Shown here: positions 15,711 to 41,784 of the stretch, one piece after another
Layout: every line of letters begins with the position of its first letter
How positions within the stretch are numbered: position 1 is the first letter of the stretch
Assembly: GCF_003846445.2 (NCBI RefSeq)
Contig: NZ_CP030139.2
Coordinates: 248,001 to 312,000, forward strand
Direction of reading: 5' to 3'
From: Synechococcus elongatus PCC 11801
GTDB taxonomy: Bacteria > Cyanobacteriota > Cyanobacteriia > Synechococcales > Synechococcaceae
DNA length: 64,000 nt
Notes under the pieces: model-generated
The model's database searches: none
Seen by the model: only the letters and a program-made list of their open reading frames with translations
Told to the model about the DNA's origin: nothing
Program-made: the position numbers and the translations under genes

Positions 15711-15775
15711 GCCGGTCTGAATTCCTCATAAACCCAACCTGTTGTCGTTTCTGTTCTTTCCCCGTTGGTGTGGTC

Positions 15776-18700
15776 ATGGCGAATGCATCCTTGAATCTCT
15801 CTGCTCTCAATGGCAGTAATGGCTTCCGCATTAACGGCATTAATGAATTTGACTTCTCTGGCCGTTCTGTTAGTAATGCAGGGGATGTGAACGGGGATGG
15901 CATTGATGACCTCATCATCGGGGCTTTTGGTGCCGATAACTTTACTGGTCAGAGCTATGTGGTCTTTGGCTCTCGCAATAGCTTTGGTAGCAACCTAAAT
16001 CTCTCAGCTCTTAATGGCATTAATGGTTTCCGTATTGATGGCATTAATGCATTTGACTACTCTGGCTGGTCTGTGAGTAGTGCTGGAGATATCAATGGGG
16101 ATGGCATTGATGACCTTATTATCGGAACTAATCGCGCCGGCCTTAACGGTAACGCTGGTGCTGGTCAAAGCTATGTGATTTTTGGTAAGGATGTAGCGCG
16201 GCAGGGAAGCTTTGATCCCGTTTTAGCACTGTCGAGCTTGAATGGTAGCAATGGTTTTCGTATCAATGGCAACGGCATTGATCCCTCTTATTCTTCTGGA
16301 TTTTCTGTGAGTAATGCCGGGGACATCAATGGAGATGGCATTGATGACCTCATCATTGGAGATCCATTTCCCAGCAACAACACTGGTCAGAGCTATGTGA
16401 TTTTTGGCAAGAAGGGGGCAACTCGAGCTGACATCAATCTCGTGACTTTTGCTCCCGAGGATGGCTTCCGCATTAATAGTTCTCTCGCTAATAGCTTCTT
16501 CAGCTTCTCCGTCAGTAATGCAGGGGATGTGAACGGGGATGGCATTGATGACCTCATTATTGGGGCTTATCGTGATCTCGTTGATGACAGACCTGAATCT
16601 GGTCAGAGCTATGTGATTTTTGGCAAGAAGGAGTCTCGGGCTGATATCAATCTTGCCACCCTCAATGCTAGCGATGGCTTCCGCATCACTGGCATGAAAT
16701 CAGGGGATCGTTCTGGCTTTTCTGTCAGTAATACAGGGGATGTGAACGGGGATGGTATTGATGACCTCATCATTGGGGCTCCGTTTGCCAGCCCTGATGG
16801 CAAGTTATATTCCGGTCAGAGCTATGTGGTGTATGGAAAGCTAGGGGCAACTCGAGCTGACATCGATCTCTTAACTTTCGCTCCCGATGATGGTTTCCGC
16901 ATCAATGGAATAAAATCAGATGACCGCTCCGGCCGTTCTGTCAGTAATGCAGGGGATGTGAACGGGGATGGCATTGATGACCTGATCATCGGGGCTCCGT
17001 TTGCTGACCCAAACGGCGACTCTTCTGGTCAGAGCTATGTGATTTTTGGCAAATTAGGGGCGACGCGGGCTGACATCAATCTGGCTACCCTTGATGGCAG
17101 CGATGGCTTCCGCATCAATGGCATTAGTGATATTAACTACTCCGGCTTCTCTGTCAGTAGTGCTGGGGATGTTAATGGGGATGGCGTTGATGACCTCATT
17201 ATTGGGGCTTATGCTGCCAACAACACTGCTGGCCAGAGCTACGTAGTCTTTGGCAATGCCGCACCCGTTCTTGACCTCGATGGTGCTGCGACGCCATCAC
17301 AGAACTTCAGCACTGTCTTCACCGGCACATCAGTCTCGGTCGTGGGTTCAGGACTCACCATCAAAGACCTCAACTCTCCAACGCTGGCTGCGGCGACGGT
17401 GACCTTGGTCAACCGGCCGGATGGAACAGCAGAATCGCTGAGTGCAATCACCACCGGCACCTCGATCACTGCGAGCTATGACAGCAATACCGGCGTGCTG
17501 TTGCTCTCGGGTATTGCTTCTGTGGCGGACTATCAGCAAGTCCTGCGCACTGTCACCTACAGCAATAGCTCGAGTGCCGCAGACCTAGATTTAAGCCGCC
17601 GCCGGATTGAGTTCGTGCTCGATGATGGCTCTGACTTTGCCAACACCAGTGCCGTTGTCACGACAACCGTGACGGTCCTCAAGCTCCCCTTGGCTAGCAA
17701 AACGAGCGTTAGTCTCTCCGCTCTCGATGGCATCAATGGCTTCCGCGTCAATGGCATTGTCGCTTCTGACTTCTCCGGCTATTCCGTAAGCGGTGCGGGG
17801 GATGTGAATGGAGATGGCATCGATGACCTGATCATTGGGGCTTTTGGTGCCGATCCCAACGGCATTGATAGAGCCGGTCAGAGCTATGTAGTCTTTGGCA
17901 AGAAAGGGGGCTTTAGTGCTGACATCGATCTAGACTCTCTCACTTCCAGCGATGGCTTCCGCATCAATGGCATTGCGGCAGGTGATGAGTCCGGCCGTTC
18001 AGTGAGTAATGCGGGGGATGTGAATGGCGATGGACTCGATGACCTGATCATTGGGGCTCTTGGCGCTAACCCCAATGGCAACACTAATAATTCTGGCCAG
18101 AGCTATGTAGTCTTTGGCAAGAAAGGGGCGACGCGGGCTGATATTAATCTCTCTACCCTCGCCCCTAGCGATGGTTTTCGTATCAACGGCATTGCGGCAT
18201 ATGACCAATCCGGTATTGCGGTAAGCAATGCGGGGGATGTGAATGGCGATGGCATTGATGACCTGATCATTGGAGCGAATCGTGCTGACCCCAATGGCGA
18301 TATTGATGCTGGTCAGAGCTATGTGGTGTACGGGAAGGAAGGAGCGACGCGGGCTGACATCGATCTCTCCTCTTTCGCCCCTAGCGATGGCTTCCGCATC
18401 AATGGCATTAATGCAGATGACCGCTCCGGCTTTTCAGTGAGCAATGCGGGGGATGTGAATGGCGATGGACTCGATGACCTCATCATTGGGGCTCAATTTG
18501 CCGACCCTAATATGAACTTGAGTTCCGGTCAGAGCTATGTAGTCTTTGGCAAAAAAGGGGCGACGCGGGCTGATATCGATCTCTCCACTTTCGCGCCCAG
18601 CGATGGCTTCCGCATCAATGGCATTGCGGCATTTGATAACTTCGGCCGTTCAGTGAGCAGTGCGGGGGATGTGAACGGCGATGGACTCGATGACCTGATC

Positions 18701-20350
18701 ATTGGGGCCTCATATGCTGACCCCAATGGCATTAATGGTTCTGGTCAGAGCTATGTAGTCTTTGGCAAGAAAGGGGCGACGCGGGCTGATATTAATCTCT
18801 CCACCCTTGCCCCTAGTGATGGCTTCCGCATCAATGGCATTGCGGCAAATGACCTCTCCGGTTTTTCGGTGAGTAATGCGGGGGATGTCAATGGCGATGG
18901 CATCGATGACCTGATCATTGGAGCCATTGGTGCCAATCCCAATGGCATTAATGGTTCTGGTCAGAGCTATGTAGTCTTTGGCAAGAAAGGGGCGACGCGG
19001 GCTGATATTAATCTCTCCACCCTTGCCCCTGGTGATGGCTTTGCCATCAACGGCATTGCGGCAAATGACCTCTCCGGCCGTTCTGTGAGCGGTGCGGGGG
19101 ATGTCAATGGCGATAGCATCGATGACCTGATCATTGGAGCGAATGGTGCCGACCCTAATGGCAGTCAGTCCGGCCAGAGCTATGTGGTCTTTGGTAATGC
19201 CGCACCCATTCTTGACCTCGATGGCTCTGCCACGCTATCCCAGGACTTTGGTGCGGTCTTCACTGGCACACCCGTCTTGGTGGTAGGAGCAGACCTCACT
19301 ATTGAAGACCTCAATTCTCCGACCCTGGCTGCAGCGACCGTGACCTTGGTCAATCGACCCGATGGCACGGCAGAGTCGCTGAGTGCCATCACCGATGGCA
19401 CCTCCATCTCTGCTCGCTACGACAGTAATACCGGTGTGCTGTTGCTCTCAGGGCTGGCTTCCGTGGCGGACTATGAACAAGTCCTGCGCACCGTCACCTA
19501 CACCAATAGCTCGAATCTGGATCGCAGTGCCCGCACGATTGAGTTCGTGCTTGATGATGGCTCTGACTTCGCCAACACCAGTGCACTGGTCTCCACAACG
19601 CTGAGCTTCAATCGCGCACCCACGGATCTGGCGCTGAGCAATACCGCGATCACTGAGAACGCGGTCGTGGGCGACGGTATTAAAGTTGCCGATATCACCA
19701 TCACTGACCCTGACACCACGGGCAATAACAACGTCCTGTCCCTCGCAGGAGATGATGCTGCTTCCTTCGAAATCCGCGGAACTGAACTCTTCTTTGTCGG
19801 CTCCAGTCCTGATTTCGAAACCAAGCCCAGTTACGCCATCACCATCACGAGTACTGATGGCAGCTTGGTCTATAGCGAACCCTTCACCATCAATGTCACG
19901 AACCTAAATGAAATCACTGGATCGCAACGATCGAACTTCCTCGTTGGATCGAAGGGCAATGACTTTATCACAGGACTCGGAGGCAATGACTTCCTGTTTG
20001 GGGGGGGTGGAAATGACATCTTGATAGGCGGTTCTGGTCAAGACTTCCTGTCTGGTGGTGCTGGCAATGACCGCTTCGTCTACACCGCTGTTTCTGACGC
20101 TCGAGACTTGATCGTCGACTTCAATGTCAAGCAAGACAGTCTGGATTTGAGTGTGCTGTTGGATAGTCTGGGGTACAAAGGCTCTAATCCCCTCGCCGAT
20201 CAAGTCCTGCGCTTCAGTACTCAACTGTTCTTAGGAACCACGGTATCTGTCAATGCGGGTCTGGGTGGAGTGCCGGACTTTGTCCCACTGGTGACCTTGT
20301 TGGGGGTCTCCTCCTCTGACTTGCTCTTGGGTGACAACATCTTGATTTGA
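15776..20350 (+). CDS. FG-GAP double-propeller protein with cadherin-like and RTX calcium-binding C-terminus
   Basis: 1,524 residues from the ATG at 15776 (a GTG lies 6 nt upstream). It contains 14 FG-GAP repeats, each with SVSNAGDVNGDGIDDLIIGA-like calcium loops and QSYVVFGK. They fall in two blocks of seven (about residues 1-495 and 640-1143), each followed by a near-identical ~140-residue domain starting APVLDLDG or APILDLDG. Then comes a cadherin-like domain (about 1280-1380, NRAPTDLALSNTAITENAV). Last is an RTX tail (GGNDFLFGGGGNDILIGG, GGAGNDRFVY), the signal class for type I secretion. Seven FG-GAP repeats make one complete integrin-alpha-like propeller, so two propellers are inferred. 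It is probably an extracellular or surface adhesin. No secretion genes are adjacent. I see no HIP1 site in the gene. Confidence 0.88.
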   Translation: MANASLNLSALNGSNGFRINGINEFDFSGRSVSNAGDVNGDGIDDLIIGAFGADNFTGQSYVVFGSRNSFGSNLNLSALNGINGFRIDGINAFDYSGWSVSSAGDINGDGIDDLIIGTNRAGLNGNAGAGQSYVIFGKDVARQGSFDPVLALSSLNGSNGFRINGNGIDPSYSSGFSVSNAGDINGDGIDDLIIGDPFPSNNTGQSYVIFGKKGATRADINLVTFAPEDGFRINSSLANSFFSFSVSNAGDVNGDGIDDLIIGAYRDLVDDRPESGQSYVIFGKKESRADINLATLNASDGFRITGMKSGDRSGFSVSNTGDVNGDGIDDLIIGAPFASPDGKLYSGQSYVVYGKLGATRADIDLLTFAPDDGFRINGIKSDDRSGRSVSNAGDVNGDGIDDLIIGAPFADPNGDSSGQSYVIFGKLGATRADINLATLDGSDGFRINGISDINYSGFSVSSAGDVNGDGVDDLIIGAYAANNTAGQSYVVFGNAAPVLDLDGAATPSQNFSTVFTGTSVSVVGSGLTIKDLNSPTLAAATVTLVNRPDGTAESLSAITTGTSITASYDSNTGVLLLSGIASVADYQQVLRTVTYSNSSSAADLDLSRRRIEFVLDDGSDFANTSAVVTTTVTVLKLPLASKTSVSLSALDGINGFRVNGIVASDFSGYSVSGAGDVNGDGIDDLIIGAFGADPNGIDRAGQSYVVFGKKGGFSADIDLDSLTSSDGFRINGIAAGDESGRSVSNAGDVNGDGLDDLIIGALGANPNGNTNNSGQSYVVFGKKGATRADINLSTLAPSDGFRINGIAAYDQSGIAVSNAGDVNGDGIDDLIIGANRADPNGDIDAGQSYVVYGKEGATRADIDLSSFAPSDGFRINGINADDRSGFSVSNAGDVNGDGLDDLIIGAQFADPNMNLSSGQSYVVFGKKGATRADIDLSTFAPSDGFRINGIAAFDNFGRSVSSAGDVNGDGLDDLIIGASYADPNGINGSGQSYVVFGKKGATRADINLSTLAPSDGFRINGIAANDLSGFSVSNAGDVNGDGIDDLIIGAIGANPNGINGSGQSYVVFGKKGATRADINLSTLAPGDGFAINGIAANDLSGRSVSGAGDVNGDSIDDLIIGANGADPNGSQSGQSYVVFGNAAPILDLDGSATLSQDFGAVFTGTPVLVVGADLTIEDLNSPTLAAATVTLVNRPDGTAESLSAITDGTSISARYDSNTGVLLLSGLASVADYEQVLRTVTYTNSSNLDRSARTIEFVLDDGSDFANTSALVSTTLSFNRAPTDLALSNTAITENAVVGDGIKVADITITDPDTTGNNNVLSLAGDDAASFEIRGTELFFVGSSPDFETKPSYAITITSTDGSLVYSEPFTINVTNLNEITGSQRSNFLVGSKGNDFITGLGGNDFLFGGGGNDILIGGSGQDFLSGGAGNDRFVYTAVSDARDLIVDFNVKQDSLDLSVLLDSLGYKGSNPLADQVLRFSTQLFLGTTVSVNAGLGGVPDFVPLVTLLGVSSSDLLLGDNILI

Positions 20351-20435: not shown

Positions 20436-21827
20436 ATGCAACCTGTTCTGACGATTGATGGACCGACTAGCCTTGACCTTGATGATGGGGTCTGGGCAGA
20501 ACCGGAGGGCGATCGCATTCGACTGACCATCGCGATCGCGGGAGTCGCTACAGCTTTGCCGCATCTCGGGATTGAGGAATGTGTGGCGCTGGCTCGGCTG
20601 CAGACGGTCTATCACGGCACTCAGATGACTCGCGCCATGCTCTCGCCAGAGCGAACCGAGGCTTTATCTCTGTTGCCTGCGGGTCCCCGTCCAGTGGTCT
20701 GTTTACAGGCGGCGATCTCGCGGCGGGGGGAGGTGCTGTCGTTTGAGTTTTCGGAAACCGTTGTGGAGTCGGCAGCGAAGCTCAGCTATGAGCAGGTCAA
20801 TCAGATCCTGGCTGGACAGGAAGATCATGGTCTGAAGGAAGTGCTGCGCTGTCTTGCGGTGGTGGCAACTCGCTTGGATAAGAACCGGCGTGGTCTCTGG
20901 GGGCGATCGCGGCAGGGGGAGTTTCGCGATGACCTGGGCTCTGTGGTTACGGGCAAGGCGGAGCAGTTGATTGCTTCCACGGCGATTCTCTACAACCAAC
21001 TGGTAGGAGAAGTGCTGAAGCAGGCAGGACTACCAGCGCTATTTCGGGTGCAAGACCCCCGACAGGATGAGGCGATCGCGCCACTTTTTGAGCAACATGA
21101 CGGCGATCCGGTGGTGCTGGCTCCCTTGATTAGTCACTGTCTACCGAGGGCACAGCATCGCGTTAAGGCTGGTCTTCACTGGGCGTTGCAGCTGCCTGCC
21201 TATGCGCGATCATCTAGTCCACTACGGCGCTATGAGGATTTGGTCAATCAGCGACAGTTGCTAGCGGTCTTGAATCAGTCGCCGTCTTTCTATCCGCCGG
21301 AGTTATTGCTGGGCGTTTGCGATCGCCTTCAGGATCGAGCGATAGCTGAGGTGGAGCGGCAGAAACAGAAGTCGGAGGAGAAGTGGCTGAGGGCGGCGTC
21401 TTCGGTCAAGCAATTGGAAACGGTGACTGAGGGGCAGTTTTCAGCGGTGTTGCGGCAAGTCTCGGTGATTGGTGCGATTCCGCCTAAGTTGGAGCAACAG
21501 CTACGGGAGCGATTGAAAAAGGGGAGTCTGACGCCCAAACATGCAGCCCAGATCCTCTCGGAGGAGTTTCCAGCCGATTTGAAGCAGGCGCTGATTGCCA
21601 AGCTCAGTCAGGGTGATCCGCTGCTGAATGGCTTGATGGTGCTCAATACCTTGGGGCAGTTGATTGGCACCGCTCCGCAGTTTGACTATGAACCAGCCAA
21701 TGGGCAGTGGTGCTGTCGCTTGGTCTGGCAGGAGCAATCCGTTGAGGCGATCGCTTCCTCGAAAGTTAGGGTGCGAGAATTGGCTGCGCTGATGGTACTT
21801 AAGGGAATTAGTTTGGTTGAGTGGTAA
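20436..21827 (+). CDS. RNB-domain exoribonuclease (RNase II/R family) with dsRNA-binding-like tail
   Basis: 463 residues. The protein begins directly with the RNB catalytic motif: TIDGPTSLDLDDGVW places Asp8, Asp14, Asp16 and Asp17 with the same spacing as the metal-binding aspartates of RNase II. The domain continues through ISHCLPRAQHRVKAGLHWAL and AYARSSSPLRRYEDLVNQRQLLAVL, the conserved C-terminal RNB motif with its arginines. There are no N-terminal cold-shock domains and no standard S1 domain. The last ~95 residues (GQWCCRLVW to SSKVRVRELAALMVLKGI) look like a dsRNA-binding domain end (SKK..AK..AA...L pattern). It degrades RNA 3' to 5' in the cytoplasm. Fragments of its two ends occur at 1.4, 2.5, 7.6 and 14.2 kb; a related leader lies at 9.9 kb. 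Confidence 0.85.
   Translation: MQPVLTIDGPTSLDLDDGVWAEPEGDRIRLTIAIAGVATALPHLGIEECVALARLQTVYHGTQMTRAMLSPERTEALSLLPAGPRPVVCLQAAISRRGEVLSFEFSETVVESAAKLSYEQVNQILAGQEDHGLKEVLRCLAVVATRLDKNRRGLWGRSRQGEFRDDLGSVVTGKAEQLIASTAILYNQLVGEVLKQAGLPALFRVQDPRQDEAIAPLFEQHDGDPVVLAPLISHCLPRAQHRVKAGLHWALQLPAYARSSSPLRRYEDLVNQRQLLAVLNQSPSFYPPELLLGVCDRLQDRAIAEVERQKQKSEEKWLRAASSVKQLETVTEGQFSAVLRQVSVIGAIPPKLEQQLRERLKKGSLTPKHAAQILSEEFPADLKQALIAKLSQGDPLLNGLMVLNTLGQLIGTAPQFDYEPANGQWCCRLVWQEQSVEAIASSKVRVRELAALMVLKGISLVEW
21667..21827 (+). repeat. R0: parent copy of the RNB-gene 3' tail repeat
   Basis: The coding end of the intact RNB gene that is duplicated at R1 (1370-1528) and, in shorter form, at R2 and R3. It encodes the dsRNA-binding-like tail. 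Confidence 0.75.
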
Positions 21828-22743
21828 AGCGATCGCGGCCTCAGAATTTTCGAGACAGACTGTATTGCAAGATCCGAGGCAGCACTATAGTATTGTGGGA
21901 TACATAGCTAATGTCTTGCTCACTGATGAAGCCTAAAACTATCCAGTTTTAACCTTCTAAATCATGTTTTTATTTAAACGAGCTTGCACAGTCGAAATTT
22001 GAGCGGAATTTCTCCCATCGTGCGATGAGTTCATCATCACCTCTAGGCGTAGTTGTAGAAAGTCACGACACGTATTGGACAAGAGTGATTGACAGAGCAA
22101 TTTAAGCAACTGCTCTAAATTTTGCGACTGAAGCCATAGGTAAGGCTGACGTTGCTTTTTCAGCCACTACTTTTACGGCTGCTAGACCTTTCTTTTTCTG
22201 GTCATTGCTGTGAAGTACTGACAGCTCGAGCTGCCAAACTCTTCCATATTATCTTTTCCTACCTCGCTACCACTTGGAGAGGAACAAGAGCTGAATCTAG
22301 AGGGGATCTCTCTGAAAGGCTGGACGTCCTAATGCCAGGGGAGAAGCTTCTCTGGTGATGGCTTGATCGTTAACTTTAATTCTAATTTTAAGCTCTTAAG
22401 CTGACAGCCATAATGAGGCGACAGCAGTCTTAGATGAGTGCGAAATCATCATTCCTCCCAAGCAGTCTGTCACTATATTTTTCATATTTTTAATTCCTTT
22501 TATCCCAGACTGGGACTGGGTTAAGGGCTTGGATAGCGTGAGGTTTAATCACTAGTTTCCAACTACTGGTTAAACATGATTGTTCCGGCAACTCATGTCT
22601 AAAGATGAAGGAATTTGAGAAATTTTTCCCGAAAACTTGGGTAAGGTAATTAAAGTGCCTCTGTCCATTTGGCCAGCCTTCCCAAGGATAGATTCTTGAT
22701 GGGGGGTAATTGTCGTGTCAACTATTAGCTAGGTAGTTTTGTG
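21828..22743. other. About 915-bp gene-free region between the RNB gene and the giant repeat protein
   Basis: Mostly AT-rich. On the minus strand 22150-21957 there is an open stretch reading WLKKQRQPYLWLQSQNLEQL then LKLLCQSLLSNTCRDFLQLR to a stop. It looks protein-like but has no ATG and has stops just upstream, so it is probably a gene remnant. The rest (22360-22740) has no recognisable gene and likely carries the long promoter/leader of the giant gene. A 68-residue plus-strand ORF (22152-22358) has no protein-like features. Confidence 0.45.
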
Positions 22744-25700
22744 ATGGGATTGTCTCCTTCCAACTCTGATTTAAACAACAACACTGGGATCTTGAGCACA
22801 GCAGTTTCGTTGTTTACCTATGAGGAGTTATCGAGCACCCAAGTAGAACTTCTGACGCCTCTCCAATTGTTGGTTCAAGAGCAACTATCAACTTGGTTTA
22901 ATCAAGAGGACTACTTAACACAGCTTGCAATTCCTTTTAGTGCGACAGCAGGAACCGAGAGCTGGATAGCTAATGCTGAGGTCTTGCGCCAGTCGATCTT
23001 GGATGGCAGCTATTCAATTCGTCTAGAGGTGCGATCGGGCGCAGATCTCAATGGGGCATTAGGGGCATATAGTGCCACGGATACCACAGGGCAACCTACA
23101 GTTTATTTGAATGGAGATTGGTTAGCTTCAGCCAGTGCTGCGCAGATTCAAGCAGTCTTGCTCGAAGAGATTGGCCATGACTTTGACAATCGACTTAACA
23201 ATGGAGTTGATAGCCTTGGTGACGAAGGCGAAATCTTCGCAAATCTTGTGCAGGGCAATGAATTTAATCTTGCTGCTTTGCAGCAGAGTGCTGATCAAGC
23301 GCAAATTAATCTTGATGGTCAAGCTATTTCTATTGAGCAATCAGCACCAACAATTGATGTTGGTGGCGTTTTTCTTAACTTCAATGGTCCTCAGTTGCAA
23401 AGTGGTACTGCTTTGCAAGCTGGCGCAGTCTATAAATATACAAATATTGCCACTGTCGGTGGAGTTCAGATTAACGCCTTGATCACAGTTGCCAGTATTA
23501 GCGCTGGTACAACACTAACAAATATTGATACAGACGCAGGTGTTAATTATACAGTTGGCTCGCAAACATTCAACGGTACAAATTTTTGGAGCCCAACAAT
23601 TACAACAACAGGAGCAGGCGGAAACGTTAGTTTCAGAGTTGAGTTTCAGAACAATGCCGACAATAGTCCTATTATCCTAACAAACCTATACAACAATTCT
23701 ATCGACTTAGATGGTAGTGAGTTTGTTGAATATGGAGGTTTTTCACAATACCAAGTATCCAATATCACAGGGCTTCCAAGGACTCGTACAGCAGGGACTA
23801 CTAGTACATCGAGCGGTACAAATACAAACTTAACAACTCCCACTGAAATAGCTGCTGCTGCCGGTACAGGGGGGCAAGTTCGGTTTGTTAATACACCTCA
23901 AACAACTTATTCAAATAGTGCTACAGGACTAATTCTTAATGATGAAGGAAGAGTCCAAACACTCTTCGATAGCGCTAGTTCTTTTACCATCACGTTAGGT
24001 ATTAATGGAGCAGCAACCAATAGACAGTTTGGCTCAGTCTTTGCATTTATTCCGTTTGCAAGTACTCCCACGACTGTCACTACACCCACTGTCAACTCCC
24101 AAATCACTAACGACACTACCCCAACAATTACGGGTACGGTTGGCAATACAGTGCTGGGTGGATCAGAGCCTTTTACTGTTGTTGTTAATGGTGTTACATA
24201 CGACAGAAATAATGCCAGCTTAACAATTAACGGACTGACTTGGAGCCTAACTATTCCCAATGGAAATGCTCTAGTCCAAAACACTTACAACGTTACTGTT
24301 ACTCGAAATAACGTCCTCGTCGATCAAACTGCCGGCGAATTAATCATTGATACCACTGCTCCGACTGTCACGATTACGGATGACGAGCCAGGAACAGGAA
24401 ATATTGCTGGCGGGGATATTGTCTATACCTTTACCTTCAACGAAGCCGTTACAGGGTTCACTGCTGATGACATCACAGTAGCCAATGGCACGAAAGGAAC
24501 ATTTACCGCTGTCAGCCCAACAGAATACACCCTTGTTGTTACTCCTGATGCTGGCTTTGAAGGCAACATCACAGTCGATGTAGCAGCTGGTGTTGCCATT
24601 GATGCTGCAGGTAATCCCAATACTGCCGCAACTCAATCAGTTCAGCCGGTTGATACCGATGTCCCTGTTCCCACGATTACGGTTGATGCGGTAACAGCGG
24701 ATAACGTGATTAATGCGGCTGAAGCCGGTGGCACTGTTGCGATTACGGGCACTGTTGGTGGTGAATTCAATACTGGTGATACCGTCACGTTGACCATCAA
24801 CGGCAAGACCTTCACGGGTAATGTCGATGCCAATGGTGACTTCAGTATCGATGTTCCTGGTAGTGATTTAGTTGATGACCCTGACCTGACCATTGCTGCC
24901 AGTGTTGCCACGACCGATGCAGCGGGTAATCCAGGCAGTGCTTCCGACAATCAAACCTATACCGTTGATGCCGATGTCCCTGTTGTAACGATTGACAGCA
25001 TTAGTGAGGATAGCGGTGCTGCGGGAGACTTTGTCACTAATGACAACACTCTCGTCTTCAACGGCACTACAGAAGCGAATAGCACCGTTGTCATCAGCTT
25101 GGATGGCGTCGAAATCGGCACTGTGACTGCTAATGGCGCTGGCGAGTGGACGTTAGATTACACCGGCACTCCCTTAGTCGATGGTGACTATCAACTAAGT
25201 GTGACGGCAACCAATCCCGCTGGGAATAGTGCCAGCGCGACGCAAGCTATCACTGTTGATACTGATGTCCCTGTTCCCACGATTACGGTTGATGCGGTAA
25301 CAGCGGATAACGTGATTAATGCGGCTGAAGCCGGTGGCACTGTTGCGATTACGGGCACTGTTGGTGGTGAATTCAATACTGGTGATACCGTCACGTTGAC
25401 CATCAACGGCAAGACCTTCACGGGTAATGTCGATGCCAATGGTGACTTCAGTATCGATGTTCCTGGTAGTGATTTAGTTGATGACCCTGACCTGACCATT
25501 GCTGCCAGTGTTGCCACGACCGATGCAGCGGGTAATCCAGGCAGTGCTTCCGACAATCAAACCTATACCGTTGATGCCGATGTCCCTGTTCCCACGATTA
25601 CGGTTGATGCGGTAACAGCGGATAACGTGATTAATGCGGCTGAAGCCGGTGGCACTGTTGCGATTACGGGCACTGTTGGCGGTGAATTCAATACTGGTGA

Positions 25701-28700
25701 TACCGTCACGTTGACCATCAACGGCAAGACCTTCACGGGTAATGTCGATGCCAATGGTGACTTCAGTATCGATGTTCCTGGTAGTGATTTAGTTGATGAC
25801 CCTGACCTGACCATTGCTGCCAGTGTTGCCACGACCGATGCAGCGGGTAATCCAGGCAGTGCTTCCGACAATCAAACCTATACCGTTGATGCCGATGTCC
25901 CTGTTCCCACGATTACGGTTGATGCGGTAACAGCGGATAACGTGATTAATGCGGCTGAAGCCGGTGGCACTGTTGCGATTACGGGCACTGTTGGCGGTGA
26001 ATTCAATACTGGTGATACCGTCACGTTGACCATCAACGGCAAGACCTTCACGGGTAATGTCGATGCCAATGGTGACTTCAGTATCGATGTTCCTGGTAGT
26101 GATTTAGTTAATGACCCTGACCTGACCATTGCTGCCAGTGTTGCCACGACCGATGCAGCGGGTAATCCAGGCAGTGCTTCCGACAATCAAACCTATACCG
26201 TTGATGCCGATGTCCCTGTTGTAACGATTGACAGCATTAGTGAGGATAGCGGTGCTGCGGGAGACTTTGTCACTAATGACAACACTCTCGTCTTCAACGG
26301 CACTACAGAAGCGAATAGCACCGTTGTCATCAGCTTGGATGGCGTCGAAATCGGCACTGTGACTGCTAATGGCGCTGGCGAGTGGACGTTAGATTACACC
26401 GGCACTCCCTTAGTCGATGGTGACTATCAACTAAGTGTGACGGCAACCAATCCCGCTGGGAATAGTGCCAGCGCGACGCAAGCTATCACTGTTGATACTG
26501 ATGTCCCTGTTCCCACGATTACGGTTGATGCGGTAACAGCGGATAACGTGATTAATGCGGCTGAAGCCGGTGGCACTGTTGCGATTACGGGCACTGTTGG
26601 CGGTGAATTCAATACTGGTGATACCGTCACGTTGACCATCAACGGCAAGACCTTCACGGGTAATGTCGATGCCAATGGTGACTTCAGTATCGATGTTCCT
26701 GGTAGTGATTTAGTTGATGACCCTGACCTGACCATTGCTGCCAGTGTTGCCACGACCGATGCAGCGGGTAATCCAGGCAGTGCTTCCGACAATCAAACCT
26801 ATACCGTTGATGCCGATGTCCCTGTTCCCACGATTACGGTTGATGCGGTAACAGCGGATAACGTGATTAATGCGGCTGAAGCCGGTGGCACTGTTGCGAT
26901 TACGGGCACTGTTGGCGGTGAATTCAATACTGGTGATACCGTCACGTTGACCATCAACGGCAAGACCTTCACGGGTAATGTCGATGCCAATGGTGACTTC
27001 AGTATCGATGTTCCTGGTAGTGATTTAGTTGATGACCCTGACCTGACCATTGCTGCCAGTGTTGCCACGACCGATGCAGCGGGTAATCCAGGCAGTGCTT
27101 CCGACAATCAAACCTATACCGTTGATGCCGATGTCCCTGTTCCCACGATTACGGTTGATGCGGTAACAGCGGATAACGTGATTAATGCGGCTGAAGCCGG
27201 TGGCACTGTTGCGATTACGGGCACTGTTGGTGGTGAATTCAATACTGGTGATACCGTCACGTTGACCATCAACGGCAAGACCTTCACGGGTAATGTCGAT
27301 GCCAATGGTGACTTCAGTATCGATGTTCCTGGTAGTGATTTAGTTAATGACCCTGACCTGACCATTGCTGCCAGTGTTGCCACGACCGATGCAGCGGGTA
27401 ATCCAGGCAGTGCTTCCGACAATCAAACCTATACCGTTGATGCCGATGTCCCTGTTGTAACGATTGACAGCATTAGTGAGGATAGCGGTGCTGCGGGAGA
27501 CTTTGTCACTAATGACAACACTCTCGTCTTCAACGGCACTACAGAAGCGAATAGCACCGTTGTCATCAGCTTGGATGGCGTCGAAATCGGCACTGTGACT
27601 GCTAATGGCGCTGGCGAGTGGACGTTAGATTACACCGGCACTCCCTTAGTCGATGGTGACTATCAACTAAGTGTGACGGCAACCAATCCCGCTGGGAATA
27701 GTGCCAGCGCGACGCAAGCTATCACTGTTGATACTGATGTCCCTGTTCCCACGATTACGGTTGATGCGGTAACAGCGGATAACGTGATTAATGCGGCTGA
27801 AGCCGGTGGCACTGTTGCGATTACGGGCACTGTTGGCGGTGAATTCAATACTGGTGATACCGTCACGTTGACCATCAACGGCAAGACCTTCACGGGTAAT
27901 GTCGATGCCAATGGTGACTTCAGTATCGATGTTCCTGGTAGTGATTTAGTTGATGACCCTGACCTGACCATTGCTGCCAGTGTTGCCACGACCGATGCAG
28001 CGGGTAATCCAGGCAGTGCTTCCGACAATCAAACCTATACCGTTGATGCCGATGTCCCTGTTCCCACGATTACGGTTGATGCGGTAACAGCGGATAACGT
28101 GATTAATGCGGCTGAAGCCGGTGGCACTGTTGCGATTACGGGCACTGTTGGCGGTGAATTCAATACTGGTGATACCGTCACGTTGACCATCAACGGCAAG
28201 ACCTTCACGGGTAATGTCGATGCCAATGGTGACTTCAGTATCGATGTTCCTGGTAGTGATTTAGTTGATGACCCTGACCTGACCATTGCTGCCAGTGTTG
28301 CCACGACCGATGCAGCGGGTAATCCAGGCAGTGCTTCCGACAATCAAACCTATACCGTTGATGCCGATGTCCCTGTTCCCACGATTACGGTTGATGCGGT
28401 AACAGCGGATAACGTGATTAATGCGGCTGAAGCCGGTGGCACTGTTGCGATTACGGGCACTGTTGGTGGTGAATTCAATACTGGTGATACCGTCACGTTG
28501 ACCATCAACGGCAAGACCTTCACGGGTAATGTCGATGCCAATGGTGACTTCAGTATCGATGTTCCTGGTAGTGATTTAGTTAATGACCCTGACCTGACCA
28601 TTGCTGCCAGTGTTGCCACGACCGATGCAGCGGGTAATCCAGGCAGTGCTTCCGACAATCAAACCTATACCGTTGATGCCGATGTCCCTGTTGTAACGAT

Positions 28701-31700
28701 TGACAGCATTAGTGAGGATAGCGGTGCTGCGGGAGACTTTGTCACTAATGACAACACTCTCGTCTTCAACGGCACTACAGAAGCGAATAGCACCGTTGTC
28801 ATCAGCTTGGATGGCGTCGAAATCGGCACTGTGACTGCTAATGGCGCTGGCGAGTGGACGTTAGATTACACCGGCACTCCCTTAGTCGATGGTGACTATC
28901 AACTAAGTGTGACGGCAACCAATCCCGCTGGGAATAGTGCCAGCGCGACGCAAGCTATCACTGTTGATACTGATGTCCCTGTTCCCACGATTACGGTTGA
29001 TGCGGTAACAGCGGATAACGTGATTAATGCGGCTGAAGCCGGTGGCACTGTTGCGATTACGGGCACTGTTGGTGGTGAATTCAATACTGGTGATACCGTC
29101 ACGTTGACCATCAACGGCAAGACCTTCACGGGTAATGTCGATGCCAATGGTGACTTCAGTATCGATGTTCCTGGTAGTGATTTAGTTAATGACCCTGACC
29201 TGACCATTGCTGCCAGTGTTGCCACGACCGATGCAGCGGGTAATCCAAGCAGTGCTTCCGACAATCAAACCTATACCGTTGATGCGACAGCGCCAGGTGC
29301 TCCTGTTGTCAGCATCACCGAAGATGCCAATGACGATGGGTTCATCAGTGCGGCTGAACTCACAGGCAACGTGGATGTTGAAGTTGCTCTACCGAAGGAT
29401 GCAGTTGCTGGCGATACTCTCACGGTTCGAGATGGGGTTAATCCAGACCAAGTCATCACCCTAGATGCCGATGACATTACGGCAGGGAGTGTCACTGTCA
29501 GCTTCCCGACTCCGAATGATGGTGAGACTATTGCGGTCACAGCTTTCATCACCGATGCAGCTGCTAACCAAGGAGCTGATGGAACTGATAGCGCTCAACT
29601 CAATCTGGATGCTCCCCAGGTAGGAGCGCTGGATATCACGACACCGACAGACACGGGTGCAGATGATCTGATTACTGGCAATGGCAATCCTGTTCTGACC
29701 TTCACGGGTGAACCTGACCTGACCATCACCCTCGAAGGGCCGGATGGCCAGATGGTGGATAGTGCTGCCTACACCGTTATCGAAACACCGGGTACCAATC
29801 CTGGTGACCCATCGACCTACAGGGTCACCTTATTAGATGCTGACCCGAGCACCAATGGAGTACAGCCCTTTGGTGATTTCTTGAATGGCAGTCCAACCAA
29901 CAATCCAGACAATACTGGCGACGGTATCTACACCCTCGTTGCCACCGATCAAGCGGGTAATAGCACCAACGTTGATGAGTTTGTCATTGATACGACTGCT
30001 CCTAACATCGCTATCACTGCTATCACCAACGACAGTGGCACCCCCGGTGACTTCATTACCAACGATCAAACTCTGATCTATGTCGGGACAGCTGACGCCA
30101 ATGCACGGGTAACACTGACTCTTACAGATAGCAACAGCAACACTGTCTTCATTACCACCACCACCGCAGATGGCAATGGCAACTGGACAATAGATCGCAC
30201 TGCCAACGAAACCTTGGCTGGAGGCACTTACACCCTAACAGCCAGCACAACAGACTTGGTTGGTAACACAACCACCGATACGCAGTCCATCACCGTTGAA
30301 ACTACGGCACCAGGGATTGCCATCACTGGCATTAGTACTGATAGTGGTGTCCCGAGCGACTTTATCACCAACGACCAAACCCTAGTTATTGCCGGGACTT
30401 GGACCAACCTGCCCACCAATACTTTGGCAGTGACCTTCAACGGTACTACCTACACCTTGGGGCAAAGTCCTCAGCTAACAGTCAATGGCAACAACTGGAC
30501 CCTAAACCTCAGCAGTATCACCACCCCTCCAGGGAATTACACCATCACTGCTGTCACCACCGATTTGGCTAGCAACACCAGCCAAGCCACTCAAAACGTC
30601 ACGATCGACACCACGGCACCCAGTGCCAGCATCACGCTGACATCCAACATCACAGCAGATGATGTCATCAACGCCGTCGAAGCGGGACAGTTGATTCCGA
30701 TCACCGGAACCGTCGGTGGGGATGTCAAAGCTGGTGACATCGTCACTCTCACGATCAACGACCAAACCTTCACGGGAGCAGTCGCCAATGGTGGCTTTAG
30801 CATTAACGTCTTAGGTAGCGCCTTAGTCGCTGACGCTGATCGTACGATTCAGGCCAGCGTCACCACCACTGACCTCGCTGGTAACAGCACCACCGCTACC
30901 GATACAGAAAGCTACATCCTTGATACGGTCATTCCGACTCTGAACATCTCCGCAGCCGATACAAACCTATCGGCAGGGGGAAGCACCACCCTCACCTTCA
31001 CTTTCAGTGAAATCCCTGTGGGCTTCACCAGTGCTGATGTCGTTGTGGCGGGTGGTACCCTCTCCAACTTCTCACCGACTGCCAATCCGCTGATCTTCAC
31101 AGCGACCTTCACTCAGTCGGGTAATGCCACCCCCAGCATCTCTGTCGCTAATAACAGCTACACCGATGCGGCGGGGAATGGCGGTACTGGCGACAGCCTG
31201 AGTCTGGGGGCTGATACTGCCGCACCAGAACTTGGGGATGACCTAGATGTTACGGATCCGACGGATAGCGCTGCCGATGACCTGCTGACCAACAATAGTA
31301 ACCCTGTCCTTACCTTTACTGGCGAGCCGGGGCTGGTTATCACTCTTATAGGACCAGCCGGAACCGTATTACTAGGCGGTTCCTACCGCGTCACAGAAAA
31401 ACCAGGCGCTAATCCTGGCGACCCTTCCCTCTATACGGTGACGCTGCTCGATGCTGATCTAACCACTGTCGGCAACCAACCCTTTGGTGATTTCTTTAAC
31501 GGCGTAGCAACGGGTAATCCCGACAACACCAGCGACGGTCTTTACACGATCGTGGCGACTGATGCAGTGGGGAGCAGTACAGCAGTGGGCCAATTTGAGA
31601 TTGATACGCTGGCGCCAGAATCGGCTACAGGACTCGATCTTATTGACTCCTCGGATACGGGGGTCAGCAATACTGACAACATTACCCAAGACACTACTCC

Positions 31701-33750
31701 CACCTTTGATGTCTTCCTGCCTAATACTGCTAAGACCGGAGACATTGTCAACCTCTTGGACGGGCTGGGCAATGTGATTGGAACAGGCATTGTCAGCAGT
31801 AATGGCCAACCCTCCATTCGGATCACGACCCAAGAGCTACAGGAAGGGGTTTACAACATTGAGGCTCAAATCACCGATCAAGCTGGCAATGTAGGGCTGG
31901 TTGGAGCAGCTCAGCTGACGATTACTGTCAATCTCTCAGCTGAGGATGATTTAGCTTCCGTTCCGCCTGGAGAAGCTATCGTCATTGATGTGCTTGCGAA
32001 TGATCGAGGCTCTGGTATTCGAATCACCAGTTTTACTCAGCCTCAAAATGGCACGGTAGCGATTGACGATAATGGCACTCCAAATGATTTCAGTGATGAT
32101 CAACTCATCTATACGGCTAATCCCAATGCCACTCCCTTTGCGCTTGGGTCTCCTCAGCAAGGTCTCCTGCAAATTGCAGGACAGGGGCTAACTGATAGCT
32201 TTACTTACACCGTGATAGATGTAAATGGAGAGACTCGAACTGCAACGGTTAATGTTGCTCTAACGCCTGAACAACCTCGTCTCAAATTCACCCTCAATCA
32301 AGCTCGTGGAGAGTTCAATAATGAAGTCGTAGCTTTCCGAGTCGATGATTCCCAGGGTGCTATCAACGGTGTCTTGCCAGGAACTCCTGGTTACCTGCAA
32401 GCCATTTTGGACCAAGTTAATCGTGGGGCAGGTGAAGTTATCTTCTCCGGTCTTGGAGAACTGACTCGGCTTGAAGGTGGAGCACTCCTGTTTGGCGAAC
32501 CTCTCACCCGCATCTCAGACACCTTTAGACCCGATCAGCCCCTTGGCTTCCTGTTGGTGCAAAACAACACCCTCGATGTTGTTGCCGAAGAGTTGCGGGC
32601 AGGGAATCTCACCACCAAAGTCTTCTTTGGTCAGAACGCTGCCAACGGTGGCAACGCTTATGTCCTAGATCAGATGCAAAGCAACAAAATTCTGCTGCGT
32701 TGGGAAGACGGTGGCACAGCCAACATTGAAGACTTTGATTTCAATGATCTTGAGTTCACCGTTGAACTCACGAATGACCCTGTTCCTTTAGGAGCACGGA
32801 CTCAAGGGGCTTTGCAGGCTGAGATTATTGATTTCCGTTCGGAGTCAGCCAACCTTGCAGCAGTCGTCGATGGCAAAATTCAAATCGGCTTCCAAATTCA
32901 ATCCGAGGCCGCTAACCTCAATCGCTTTGCCTTCTACGAAGTGATTGACGAAGCCGGTACTATCCGCATTCAAGGCACTAACCAGACTGTCCGACCGGGA
33001 GATGCCAACTATGCAGAGGTAGCACTAGCACAGCAGATCGAGTTGATCTCAGATGGTCAACGATTAGCGGCAGAAGTAGATGCTGGCAAGATGTATGCCC
33101 CATTCCTGATCAGTGAATCAGATAATGGTGTGGAATACTACTTTGCCTATGCAAACGCAAACCCCGACAAGATCGACCATGTACGGCTCTTGGCAGACAA
33201 TACCTTTGCTTTTGAAGACCAACTCAATGGTGGCGATCGTGACTTTGATGACTTCATTATTAAAGTTGAGCAACCTTCGAGATTCAATGAGTTCATTGAT
33301 CTCACTGGCTTTGATGGTCAACAAGTCCGCGTAGATTTCAGCGAGATTGTTAGTGATGCTGGTTTCAGTAACTCTGTTGGCTTCTATGCCGTAGCTGACA
33401 GATTGGGTCGCATCCGTGATCCGCTGAGTGGAGAGTTGATCAGCCCCAATGATCCTGGTTATGCAGCGCTAGCACAGCAGAATGCAGTGTCTGGTCTCAT
33501 CATCGACAACAGCAGTGGTAGTCAAAGCATTACGCTGTCGGGTGGCGAGCTGTATGCTCCCTTCCTGAATGTTGTGGAATCGCCTGAGCTGTCTCGTACC
33601 TATTTCTCCTTCTTAGGTGCTAATCCTGACAAAGCCGATCATATTCTCGTCTCGGAAAGCGATCGCCTTTTCCGCTTTGAGGATACGTTTGGTAGCGGTG
33701 ATGCTGATTTTAATGATCTGCAGTTCCGCATTAGTCTCACTGCTATTTAG
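22744..33750 (+). CDS. Giant Ig-like repeat surface protein with DUF4114-like C-terminus
   Basis: 3,668 residues from the ATG at 22744 (GTG at 22741 also possible). The N-terminal ~200 residues hold [20 protein letters not shown] and [11 protein letters not shown], a metallopeptidase-like signature. After transition domains comes an array (residues ~640-2182) of 11 A units (105 aa, [20 protein letters not shown]...) and 4 B units (97 aa, [20 protein letters not shown]...), all Ig-like (Bap/BIG type). About 1,000 residues of more divergent Ig-like domains follow ([39 protein letters not shown]) and a VCBS-like segment. Three DUF4114-like modules end the protein, each with acidic loops: [27 protein letters not shown]. 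It is probably a surface or secreted adhesin or biofilm/grazing-resistance protein; the export route is not visible. One HIP1 site only, at 33659. Confidence 0.85.
24661..29289 (+). repeat. Nested tandem array: 11 A units (315 bp) and 4 B units (291 bp), 1,236-bp higher-order period
   Basis: Order A1 24661, B1 24976, A2-A4 25267/25582/25897, B2 26212, A5-A7 26503/26818/27133, B3 27448, A8-A10 27739/28054/28369, B4 28684, A11 28975-29289. B-to-B distance is exactly 1,236 bp three times. Units are almost identical at nucleotide level. Variants are GGTGGTGAATTC or GGCGGTGAATTC, GTTGATGACC or GTTAATGACC, and a single GGC-to-AGC change in A11. In each complete AAA block the third A carries GTTAATGACC. 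The array is in frame and keeps the protein open. Confidence 0.95.
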
Positions 33751-33798
33751 ATCTCAGCATCAGAGAGCAGTGTTGCCATATAGCTGAAGCAATGGTTT

Positions 33799-33834
33799 AA
33801 CCCCGAGTCTCTGATGAGATTAGGGGTTTTTTTG
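33799..33834 (+). terminator. Intrinsic terminator of the giant repeat-protein gene
   Basis: AACCCC pairs with GGGGTT, with an inner TCTC/GAGA stem around TGAT, followed by a run of T. It starts 48 bp after the stop codon. Confidence 0.8.
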
Positions 33835-33853
33835 AACAATTTTGAGGTTGTCT

Positions 33854-35035
33854 GTGTCTGTCTCTGCGAAGGAATCAATTTCTTTTATTAACTCAATTAA
33901 ATGGCTTATAGCCACTTTTCTTTTGTGGCGTCTAGCATTATTTATTGTCGCATTTACAGGGTTAAGCTTATCGATAGAGTATCCAGGAACCTATGATCAC
34001 AACTCTCATTGGGTGTACTTTGAGAACAACTATATTCTTAATGGCTTCTTTCGCTGGGATGCAGACTGGTATGACTTGATTGCGAGAGAGGGATATTTTA
34101 ATGGTCAGGATGAAAGAAAGGGGAATACAACTGCTTTTTTTCCTCTTTTTCCACTTCTTTCAAGGTGGCTGTCTCATGTTTTTAGCTCTCATCTAATTGC
34201 AGGATTAGTGATATCTAATGTCTCACTACTCCTTGCTCTAGGTATTTGCTATAGAATTGGAGTAAAGTTCTATAAGGAACAGATTGTTCAAAGATCAATA
34301 ATTTTAATTTTGTCATTTCCCGGTTCTTTTTTCTTCAGCACATACTACACTGAAGGCCTTTACTTTTTTCTAACTTCTGCAAGTTTACTTTACTATTTTA
34401 GAGATAATTATCTAGCCTCTGGCTGCTTTGGATTTCTTGCATCTCTCACACGTCCTACTGGAGTTTCACTAATTATCGCTATGGCTATCTCTAGCGCATT
34501 TCAGAAAATTCTGGGTAAAAAAACAATCAAACCATCTATTTCTTTTTTACTTTTAATACCACTGGGACTACTTACTTATATGGCTTTTCTCTATATTTAT
34601 ACAGGCAATGCATTTATATTTAGTACTTCTCAAGTTTATTGGGGGCGCAGTTTTAATTTTCCTCTTTTATCACTCATTCAATCAATAAAAGAAATCAATT
34701 TCTCCTTGCCAAGAGATATGAATAATACGCAAATACTGGTTAATTCTTTTTGTGCATTTTTGTTTTTAGGGAGTGGGGCATGGATGCTTATTAAAAACTT
34801 AAAATCTCAAGAAAACATAACACTTCCACTTTGGGTTTTAATTGGTGTTCTTTTCCCTTTATCAACAGGAAGCACAGATTCTATGGTTCGGTTTTGTTCG
34901 GTTTTGTTTCCTGTATTTTTTATGCTTGCAGCTTCTCTTAAAAAAGAGGTTCATTATGCATGGTTGATCAGTTTTTTCTCTGCATTACAGGCTGTCTATC
35001 TTCTGGGATTTATGAATAAGTTTTGGGTTGTATAA
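33854..35035 (+). CDS. Membrane protein of the PIG-V/GT-C mannosyltransferase-like family
   Basis: 393 residues from GTG 33854, chosen because GAGG (33844-33847) lies 6 nt before it; TTG codons at 33842 and 33848 are alternatives. No ATG is available near the N-terminus. There are about nine or ten hydrophobic helices. The first luminal loop has FFRWDADWYDLIAREGYF and TTAFFPLFPLL (acidic GT-C motif), then LSFPGSFFFSTYYTEGLYFF and LTRPTG, as in PIG-V-like glycosyltransferases that use polyprenyl-phosphate sugars at membranes. The gene is distinctly AT-rich and without HIP1, unlike the chromosome around it, which suggests transfer. It could glycosylate an exported neighbour such as the giant protein upstream; that is speculative. 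Confidence 0.75.
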   Translation: MSVSAKESISFINSIKWLIATFLLWRLALFIVAFTGLSLSIEYPGTYDHNSHWVYFENNYILNGFFRWDADWYDLIAREGYFNGQDERKGNTTAFFPLFPLLSRWLSHVFSSHLIAGLVISNVSLLLALGICYRIGVKFYKEQIVQRSIILILSFPGSFFFSTYYTEGLYFFLTSASLLYYFRDNYLASGCFGFLASLTRPTGVSLIIAMAISSAFQKILGKKTIKPSISFLLLIPLGLLTYMAFLYIYTGNAFIFSTSQVYWGRSFNFPLLSLIQSIKEINFSLPRDMNNTQILVNSFCAFLFLGSGAWMLIKNLKSQENITLPLWVLIGVLFPLSTGSTDSMVRFCSVLFPVFFMLAASLKKEVHYAWLISFFSALQAVYLLGFMNKFWVV

Positions 35036-35036
35036 C

Positions 35037-35300
35037 TATTTATTTCAGTTGAAGTCCCGCTTAGTGGATCCAGACATGGAAGTACGCTGCTGGATTGCCA
35101 ATACTCTGAAACGGATTGGCACTGAAGCTGCAGTGGACGCTCTCTTCCAAGCACTGCATGAGCTACCGGCAGAGGAATTAGAGAGAAGATACCTGAGTCG
35201 TCCCACCTATGCACTTCTGCTGGACGGATTGAATCAGCCCTTTGCCTCGGCAGGGGAGAAGCTGGTGTCGGTGTTTCTGTCTGAGGGCGATCGCGCTTTT
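35037..35300 (+). pseudogene. HEAT-repeat protein fragment fused to an unknown fragment
   Basis: The stretch reads FQLKSRLVDPDMEVRCWIAN, TLKRIGTEAAVDALFQALHE (a HEAT-type helix pair), then NQPFASAGEKLVSVFLSEGD. There is no good start and it ends abruptly near 35300, where the antisense recombinase fragment begins. The last 70 bp have a near-identical copy at about 39590-39660 on the opposite strand. It appears to be debris from one or two larger genes. Confidence 0.5.
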
Positions 35301-35842
35301 AGATCCTGCCAGCGGAGGCTACAGAGTTCAGAAACCCTCACCCCTGCTCCATAGAGCACTTGCAGAATCAAGCGATCGCGGTCATTGCCCGCCGCTGCAA
35401 TCAGGCTTTGAATGATGCTTTCAGGCAAGATCCGTTCAGCCAACGTGTCTTTGACTTTGGGGGCATGAATGGCAGCTGCTACATTCACGGGCACCACACC
35501 CAAGCGCTTCGACAAGAAGCTAAACAGCGACTTCAGCACAGCCACAGTCCGCCGCCGACTCGAAGCCTGCAAACACTCAGGCGAATGACGAAGAAGGACA
35601 GCGCGATCGCCCCGAGGTAGTTGATCGAGCCGATCGAGATAGATTTGCAAATCCGCCAGCGTCACTTGGGGCAAAGGCTTCTGAACCCAGTGCCGAAACA
35701 CCCGTGCCTCTTGCAAGTAGTAACGCTGAGTATGTGGCGATCGCCCATGGACCCACAGTGCTAAGGCTGGTTCCCAAGTATCTGCTGAGGAGGATGGAAC
35801 AAGCTCAGTCGGACTGGATCGCGCGATCGCCCTTGATGTCAT
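35234..35842 (-). pseudogene. Truncated tyrosine recombinase (XerC/XerD/phage-integrase type)
   Basis: The first ~178 codons give a SAM-like core-binding domain (SPHTQRYYLQEARVFRHWVQ, RRRTVAVLKSLFSFLSKRLG, NVAAAIHAPKVKDTLAERIL) and the start of the catalytic domain: RDRLILQVLYGAGVRVSELC SLRWQDL, which holds the first catalytic Arg. Homology then stops at about 35300; the remaining Lys, HxxR and Tyr nucleophile are missing. Strand exchange is therefore impossible. The last codons overlap the unknown fragment on the other strand. The start ATG at 35842 looks normal. Confidence 0.75.
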
Positions 35843-35861
35843 GAGCAGGAACTCCAGCGCT

Positions 35862-35879
35862 AGCGATCGCTGTACTGAT
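35862..35879 (+). repeat. Left 18-bp direct repeat flanking the DUF3800 gene
   Basis: AGCGATCGCTGTACTGAT, identical to 36880-36897 and in the same orientation. It includes a HIP1 octamer, but the ten other bases also match. Confidence 0.8.
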
Positions 35880-35922
35880 TCCCATCCAGCTTAATGCAAG
35901 AGTAGAAGACTAATCTTGCATT

Positions 35923-36768
35923 GTGAGTATGGACGGAGCCCCTCGATCGCCAACCTGCTATTTCGTCGATGAAGCAGGCGATGGCACGGTCTTTAATGCC
36001 AAGGGCAAAGTCATCATTGGGACACAAGGCTGTTCTCGTTTTTTCATGCTCGGCCTCTTGCAAGTCGAAGACCCCGATCGCATTGGCCAAGAACTAGAGG
36101 ACTTACGGAAAGAAATCCTCGCAGATCCAAACCTCGCCCATATTCCCTCTCTCCAACCCGATCGCCGCAAGACTGCGATCGCCTTTCATGCCAAGGATGA
36201 TCATCCTTTAGTCAGGGAACGAGTTTTCCACCTGATTGAGAAGCACCAGTCGCAGCTCAAGTTCTTCGCGGTGATTCGCTGCAAAACGGCGCTACTCCAA
36301 TACATTTACGAGCGCCAGCGCCAATCCGAAGACTACCGCTACCGAGACAACGAGCTCTATGACTACCTCGTGCGCAGGCTCTTCCGCGATCGCCTGCATA
36401 CTCAAGAGGCCTATCGCATCTTCTTTGCCAAGCGTGGCAATTCCGATCGCACCAAGGCTTTGAAAGCTGCTCTCCAAGGCGCGATCGCTAATCTGGAATC
36501 AGCCAAGGGCATCCGTTCTACAGCGGCGATCGAAGTTGAGTCCGTTCTATCGAGAGAGCAGCCCTGCCTACAGCTGGCGGATTACTTTCTCTGGGTCGTG
36601 CAACGGCTTTTCGAGAAGCAGGAAGATCAGTACCTGCAGCAAGTCCTACCGGCTCTCAGTCTGATTGTCGATATTGATGATGCGACTCGCCAGCCCTTTG
36701 GTCGCTACTACTCACGTCAGAAGCCGATTAGCCTAGCTGAGATTCAAAAAGCTAGACCCGAGATATAG
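35923..36768 (+). CDS. DUF3800 domain-containing protein
   Basis: 281 residues. CYFVDEAGDGT near the N-terminus is the DUF3800 signature (an RNase H-like acidic site), followed by FFMLGLLQVEDPD, IAFHAKDDHPLVRERVFHLI, and a late REQPCLQLADYFLWVVQRLFE, typical of the family's conserved D-Y-x-x-W end. The family has a nuclease-like fold and often occurs in mobile or defence contexts, with no settled function. Start GTG 35923; ATG 35929 is equally possible. The gene lies alone between 18-bp direct repeats in a region of gene debris, with several HIP1 sites inside, so it is not a recent arrival by that measure. Confidence 0.8.
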   Translation: MSMDGAPRSPTCYFVDEAGDGTVFNAKGKVIIGTQGCSRFFMLGLLQVEDPDRIGQELEDLRKEILADPNLAHIPSLQPDRRKTAIAFHAKDDHPLVRERVFHLIEKHQSQLKFFAVIRCKTALLQYIYERQRQSEDYRYRDNELYDYLVRRLFRDRLHTQEAYRIFFAKRGNSDRTKALKAALQGAIANLESAKGIRSTAAIEVESVLSREQPCLQLADYFLWVVQRLFEKQEDQYLQQVLPALSLIVDIDDATRQPFGRYYSRQKPISLAEIQKARPEI

Positions 36769-38270: not shown

Positions 38271-38293
38271 ATAAATCTGTCCATGACAATCTG

Positions 38294-41621: not shown

Positions 41622-41784
41622 TCTAATCTATGACTCCAGTCATTCGCAGTAATCGTAACGTCCCACTCAACTCCAGTCAGGCCTTAGGACGCGGTAGAAA
41701 CCTACAAGACAAGCTTTATTTCAATTTATCCCCCCACTTGTCCTAGCTGATTAAGATGAAGATATTGAATTCCGTACAGTATTC

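Follow-up and report, generated by a model that had tools for sequence, protein, structure and literature searches.

A composite array of nearly identical Ig-like domains as the probable stalk of a giant protein in Synechococcus elongatus PCC 11801

A giant gene of Synechococcus elongatus PCC 11801 carries, within a single open reading frame of 3,669 codons, an array of 15 in-frame, head-to-tail units that are almost identical in DNA. The array is very probably a rod-like stalk, recently grown by recombination, which belongs to a cell-surface protein exported, as is likely, by type I secretion. The reading frame begins with GTG followed by ATG and is free of internal stops and frameshifts. In the literature on giant proteins of the genus Synechococcus, nothing was found about this gene.

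The units are of two kinds, termed A and B, and follow each other in the order A B (AAAB)x3 A. There are eleven A units, each 315 bp long (105 aa), and four B units, each 291 bp long (97 aa), which add up to 4,629 bp (11 x 315 + 4 x 291). A repeat finder permitting long periods returned a period of 1,236 bp, that is, three A and one B, with 3.8 copies, a match of 99% and a score of 9225, which is far above chance. A preliminary description of this DNA had reported a nested AAAB array with this period and with 11 A and 4 B units. This is confirmed, and the true span, 24655-29283, lies about 6 bp from the one first proposed. The AAAB layout holds for three full blocks, but the array starts with a block shortened to AB and ends in a lone A after the last block. 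In the window, meaning the whole stretch of 64,000 nucleotides that was analysed, the start sequences of the A and B units are absent elsewhere.

The gene is ordered as head, Big_12, array, further Ig-like domains present singly or in few copies (T, L, B-like and A-like), Big_9 and a DUF4114 tail (Table 1). The head-type domain is found in 123 of 390 cyanobacterial genomes. A tandem β-sandwich extender region of the kind known from RTX adhesins (LapA/SiiE/MpIBP) is present in the gene. The HemolysinCabind profile (PF00353) gave zero matches within it and C-terminal RTX nonapeptide repeats were not found, the tail being DUF4114; the protein is, therefore, no textbook RTX adhesin. The gene directly upstream, an FG-GAP gene, has RTX repeats. 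G001, the one further genome of the genus in the comparison, lacks the head and the A/B domains. The neighbouring genes are conserved there: a relative of the gene at 41785 comes around 3 kb after a gene with 81% similarity to 20436-21827. Thus, the array-bearing gene sits in a stretch of about 20 kb that differs between the two species. Also located there are a short ORF resembling a XerC recombinase and a fragment of EcoEI_R_C.

Table 1. Features of the array-bearing gene, in positions of the window
Feature	Position	Strand	Basis
ORF with array	22741..33750	+	ORF call, GTG start
N-terminal head core, 10-aa motif	22858..23256	+	76-78% identity to genus g44 homologues
Big_12 Ig-like domain directly 5' of array	24349..24594	+	profile match
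Whole array A B A A A B A A A B A A A B A	24655..29283	+	repeat and unit alignment
A1, haplotype T,G	24655..24969	+	unit alignment
B1, Big_13 domain	24970..25260	+	profile match
A2 (T,G), A3 (C,G), A4 (C,A)	25261..26205	+	unit alignment
B2 = B1	26206..26496	+	identical
A5 (C,G), A6 (C,G), A7 (T,A)	26497..27441	+	unit alignment
B3 = B1	27442..27732	+	identical
A8, A9, A10	27733..28677	+	exact copy of A5-A7
B4 = B1	28678..28968	+	identical
A11 (T,A; private change at position 264, diverged 3' edge)	28969..29283	+	unit alignment
Single T domain	29284..29619 (end approximate)	+	60% aa to domain occurring 23 times in G390
First of two L domains	29620..29991 (borders approximate)	+	65-67% aa to domain occurring 5-6 times in G217, G390
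Lone diverged A-type domain, beyond array (3')	30643..30936	+	60% aa to A
C-terminal tail, three DUF4114 domains	31888..33747	+	40-41% identity over ~600 aa in G217 and G064

All four B copies are identical, and the 11 A copies amount to five sequences. Within A, the two variable internal sites are position 89 (T/C, silent) and position 204 (G/A, Asp to Asn); the last copy alone also deviates at position 264 and along its 3' edge. The near lack of nucleotide divergence that had been reported is thus borne out, and the GGT/GGC switch mentioned with it is real and corresponds to position 89 of A. The marker GTTAATGACC, which had been assigned to the third A of each AAA block, is found there in every block and recurs in the lone A at the end. 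The median DNA identity of A-type copies is 99.4%, which lies within the very high DNA identity expected of the stalks of Periscope Proteins. The other domains of the gene are only 33-67% alike to their relatives in protein, and the DNA similarity among the FG-GAP repeats of the adjacent upstream gene is 73-80%; the uniformity is, therefore, specific to the array and not regional.

When read in order, with slashes for the B units, the A haplotypes are TG / TG CG CA / CG CG TA / CG CG TA / TA. Blocks 2 and 3 are exactly alike, and block 1 departs from both at two silent sites. Recent growth of the array by duplication of the 1,236-bp block, as the preliminary description had suggested, is thus well supported. 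The two marker sites were also observed in every possible combination (TG, CG, CA and TA), so that the units have recombined with each other, or one of the sites has mutated twice. Duplication of whole AAAB blocks, together with unequal crossovers inside the A units, explains the marker pattern. In such a scheme, A units would first have been amplified beside a B by unequal homologous recombination, the AAAB block would then have been duplicated as one unit, and crossovers within A units would have produced the mosaic copies.

The identity of the units was established through profile, database and model comparisons. A matches the RII tetra-tandemer of the Marinomonas ice adhesin (MpAFP_RII, PDB 4P99) with E=3.4e-87. 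The A-A-B-A segment scores 226.3 bits, in four stretches, against the NCBIfam profile Ca_tandemer (NF033510) and 255 bits against Ig_like_ice, each with a cut-off of 50. B scores 64 bits against Pfam Big_13 (PF19077; gathering cut-off 27), and its closest relative in the PDB is the SiiE fragment 2YN3 (E=1.6e-13). An AlphaFold2 model of A3-A4-B2-A5 has a mean pLDDT of 92.5 and a pTM of 0.65, the latter leaving the relative orientation of the domains uncertain. The best PDB match of this model is again 4P99 (E=4.3e-41), and the single domain matches 4KDV with a TM of 0.90 on the target, as an Ig-like β-sandwich of the RII fold. In RII, the Ca2+ ion between repeats is coordinated by the side chains of Asp104 in the first repeat and Asp191 (residue 87) in the repeat that follows (PMC4083281). 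A has Asp at both equivalent positions, and the equivalent of Asp191 is lost in B (TNPAGN vs TTDAAGN). Since B is without this residue, it may be guessed that the A-to-B joints are held differently from the A-to-A joints. Going by sequence and model, A is assigned as a putatively Ca2+-stabilised RII-type extender and B as a SiiE-type Big_13 domain, and the array is placed in the ordinary adhesin-stalk (Periscope-like) kind.

A broad protein search of named genomes with A returned relatives in proteobacteria and others, none of them from another strain of the same species. Within the class, A-type domains occur in 8 of 390 genomes, and they form an array elsewhere only in G217. The array of that genome consists of 22 A' units and 12 units of another partner domain, B'; A' is 77% alike to A in protein, and the A' array is 99.7% uniform internally.

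The exchange of arrays was studied in three species (G217, G258 and G390) of a single genus other than that of the window. Their upstream flanks share 82-90% DNA identity, and the similarity continues into the gene, whose first 1,010 bp are 84-95% identical. The tails of the genes are 76-87% identical, and the downstream flank is 83% identical between G217 and G390; the three genes are orthologues. Four genomes that share the head and not the tail (G352, G195, G325 and G144) were excluded from the array comparison; the gene of G325 is cut by a contig end, and G195 has a masked or unknown stretch.

Between the conserved ends, the arrays of the three species are mutually unrelated. In G390, the T domain occurs 23 times (copies 99.4% alike) and the L domain 6 times. 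The G258 gene enters a third type of repeat (336 bp), where the contig breaks, and another G258 contig ends within L repeats. A distant homologue, in G064, has 15 V domains along with one copy each of A, B', B, T and L; it was not accepted as an orthologue of the G217 gene, with which its flanks share nothing. Similarly, the gene of the window has T once and L twice (60-67%), domains that are amplified in other genomes. A common set of domains is thus shared, and a different one is amplified in each gene; the arrays have therefore been exchanged, and not merely lengthened or shortened. By the evidence of these sequences, stalk material turns over as well as stalk length, and the ends are retained. 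Whether the gene family is a chassis with an exchangeable stalk is an evenly balanced question. Under such a reading, head and tail would be fixed, and a lineage-specific seed domain would be amplified and would displace the previous array, while the shared seed domains would sit between the ends in single or low copy.

An old array of constant copy number, homogenised by gene conversion (concerted evolution) and with no recent expansion, is an unlikely source of the uniformity, even though exchange between units has probably happened, given the four marker combinations. The A units of the window and those of G217 are both arrayed and each homogeneous within the species, as would be expected of an inherited array under concerted evolution. 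However, the partner domain differs between the two, and the arrays of orthologues within a single genus are unrelated, which shows that arrays are gained and lost. Moreover, blocks 2 and 3 are the same across the full higher-order unit, B included, and the differences of block 1 track block position, as block duplication predicts. Gene conversion itself had been part of the first account of this array. Recombination between units is upheld by the marker combinations, but gene conversion, though possible, is needed for nothing beyond what unequal crossing-over provides, and two sites fit both processes equally well.

It is quite improbable that the real number of AAAB blocks is higher or lower than assembled and that the near identity is partly a consensus collapse. 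The longest exact repeat, of 1,841 bp (25996 and 27232), does exceed the span of short reads; the contigs of G258 break inside arrays of the related gene, and in several other relatives contigs end no more than a few hundred bases away from such an array. Yet the array sits in a chromosome-sized contig of 2.72 Mb and shows five A haplotypes in order instead of a smooth consensus. Comparable arrays, 99.4-99.7% alike, are present in other assemblies of few contigs (G217, G390), and identity at the DNA level has been published for MpIBP (PMC4083281, PMC7493085). The existence of the array is safe; the precise count of 1,236-bp blocks depends on how they were assembled and is not safe. Finally, it is scarcely credible that the likeness of the domains is due solely to selection at the protein level, in that a regular rod requires identical ones, for although such arrays do give regular rods, as in MpIBP (PMC4083281), just one silent site is polymorphic in the ~76 synonymous sites of the eleven A units and none in the 70 or so of the four B units, which places the identity at the DNA level and refutes such selection as the sole cause, and the other domains of the gene have diverged though they are presumably functional.

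In the proposed mechanism, the protein would be secreted and displayed on the cell, and the array would serve as a Ca2+-stiffened shaft that keeps one end of the protein off the surface. A and B, being Ig-like β-sandwiches with short Ca2+-binding linkers, would form a stiff rod between the N-terminal head and the DUF4114 tail. The length of one RII repeat is 46 angstrom (PMC7493085), at which 15 domains would give a rod of ~70 nm. The domain types, along with a HlyD-family type I secretion adaptor encoded in the genome (score above the cut-off), point to secretion and a surface location. The surface-stalk reading that had been offered earlier fits these data, as A and B are related to structurally solved extender domains of adhesins; a role in adhesion is likewise presumed. 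Identical DNA is a substrate for homologous recombination, and fast change of length is, therefore, possible; in the species of PCC 11801, such change may be continuing. The identity would leave the array open to further gain, loss or wholesale replacement, and a new seed domain could take over.

The array resembles several known systems. A is of the same domain type as RII of MpAFP/MpIBP of Marinomonas primoryensis (PDB 4KDV, 4P99), with 105 vs 104 aa, the inter-repeat Ca2+ site is conserved in its Asp residues, and in both cases the repeats are nearly identical in DNA, as is known of the MpIBP extender array (PMC4083281, PMC7493085). However, in MpIBP a single domain is repeated about 120 times and RTX repeats lie at the C-terminus, whereas here 11 A units stand in a composite AAAB array with a DUF4114 tail, and the likeness carries no implication of ice binding. 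Extender domains are also reported to differ greatly among species (PMC7493085). B, though a Big_13 domain by score with SiiE as its closest PDB relative (2YN3, PF19077), stands singly among A-type domains, whereas SiiE is a run of 53 BIg domains (PMC5466336). Variable-length stalks of identical domains have been named Periscope Proteins and are a predicted substrate for recombinational length change; the Pfam family Big_13 was among those set up in the same work (PMC8201768, PMC9704523). The present protein is, like these, a single chain of surface type with a stalk of highly identical tandem domains (PMC8201768, PMC9704523). Periscope Proteins are defined by variation of length from strain to strain; the comparison here covered one genome per species. 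Unlike them, the array in the related genus is swapped for a different domain, which goes beyond a change of length.

As far as was searched, two features are new: a composite AAAB unit that joins an RII-type with a SiiE-type domain, and the replacement of the stalk, demonstrated on syntenic orthologues, with both ends retained. Long stalk arrays of identical domains have been described in pathogens and in a single ice adhesin, for the most part as versions of different length built from the same domain. What the orthologues suggest is a general way for a bacterium to rebuild the shaft of such a giant surface protein, its ends unchanged, through the recombinational amplification of any available seed domain. 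If the chassis reading is true, both the length and the material of the stalk would be evolvable within the time that separates closely related species. The comparison of three species makes the origin and loss of identical tandem domains directly testable in free-living cyanobacteria.

The orthologue of the array gene in G390, a species of another cyanobacterial genus, holds three repeated domain types within a single gene: 23 near-identical T domains of 318 bp each, four K domains (378 bp) and six L domains (405 bp). Its array is longer than that of the window's gene. In the more distant homologue from G064, the V domain is repeated in 15 near-identical copies of 318 bp, repeats of 363 bp are also present, and A, B', B, T and L occur once each.

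The neighbour of the array gene, a 1,526-codon gene (window 15770-20350), carries 14 FG-GAP stretches and, at its C-terminus, RTX repeats. Its 213-216-bp repeats are just 73-80% alike, in contrast with the uniform array next to it.

Around the array gene, about 20 kb (window 22000-41780) is swapped for about 3 kb in another species of the genus (G001, C1:1-20000). The borders, a ribonuclease-like gene (20436-21827) and a LexA-like gene (41785), are common to both, and the shorter counterpart carries an acetamidase/formamidase-like gene, so named by eye.

Features of the window and of the compared genomes
Feature	Location	Remark
Short XerC-like recombinase ORF	window 35234-35842	within the ~20-kb stretch
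DUF3800 gene	window 35923-36768	within the ~20-kb stretch
EcoEI_R_C fragment	window 38294-39478	within the ~20-kb stretch
G390 orthologue	C1:409961-426410	
G064 homologue	C1:2345828-2365123	6,432 codons
16S rRNA copy 1	G000:C1:1778642-1780130	
16S rRNA copy 2	G000:C1:2401363-2402520	

The two 16S rRNA copies in the assembly of the window's own genome (G000) differ by about 0.7% over 1,423 bp, the remainder of the operons being masked; the difference may be real or an assembly fault.

In G258 (C28, the gene's first 888 aa), the domain following the head (AVYKFTNI...) resembles, by eye, the second domain of the window's gene (AVYKYTNI..., at about 23400-24050), whereas G217 and G390, judged likewise, have different domains at this position. 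Thus, the head-adjacent region, too, may be exchanged between these genes.
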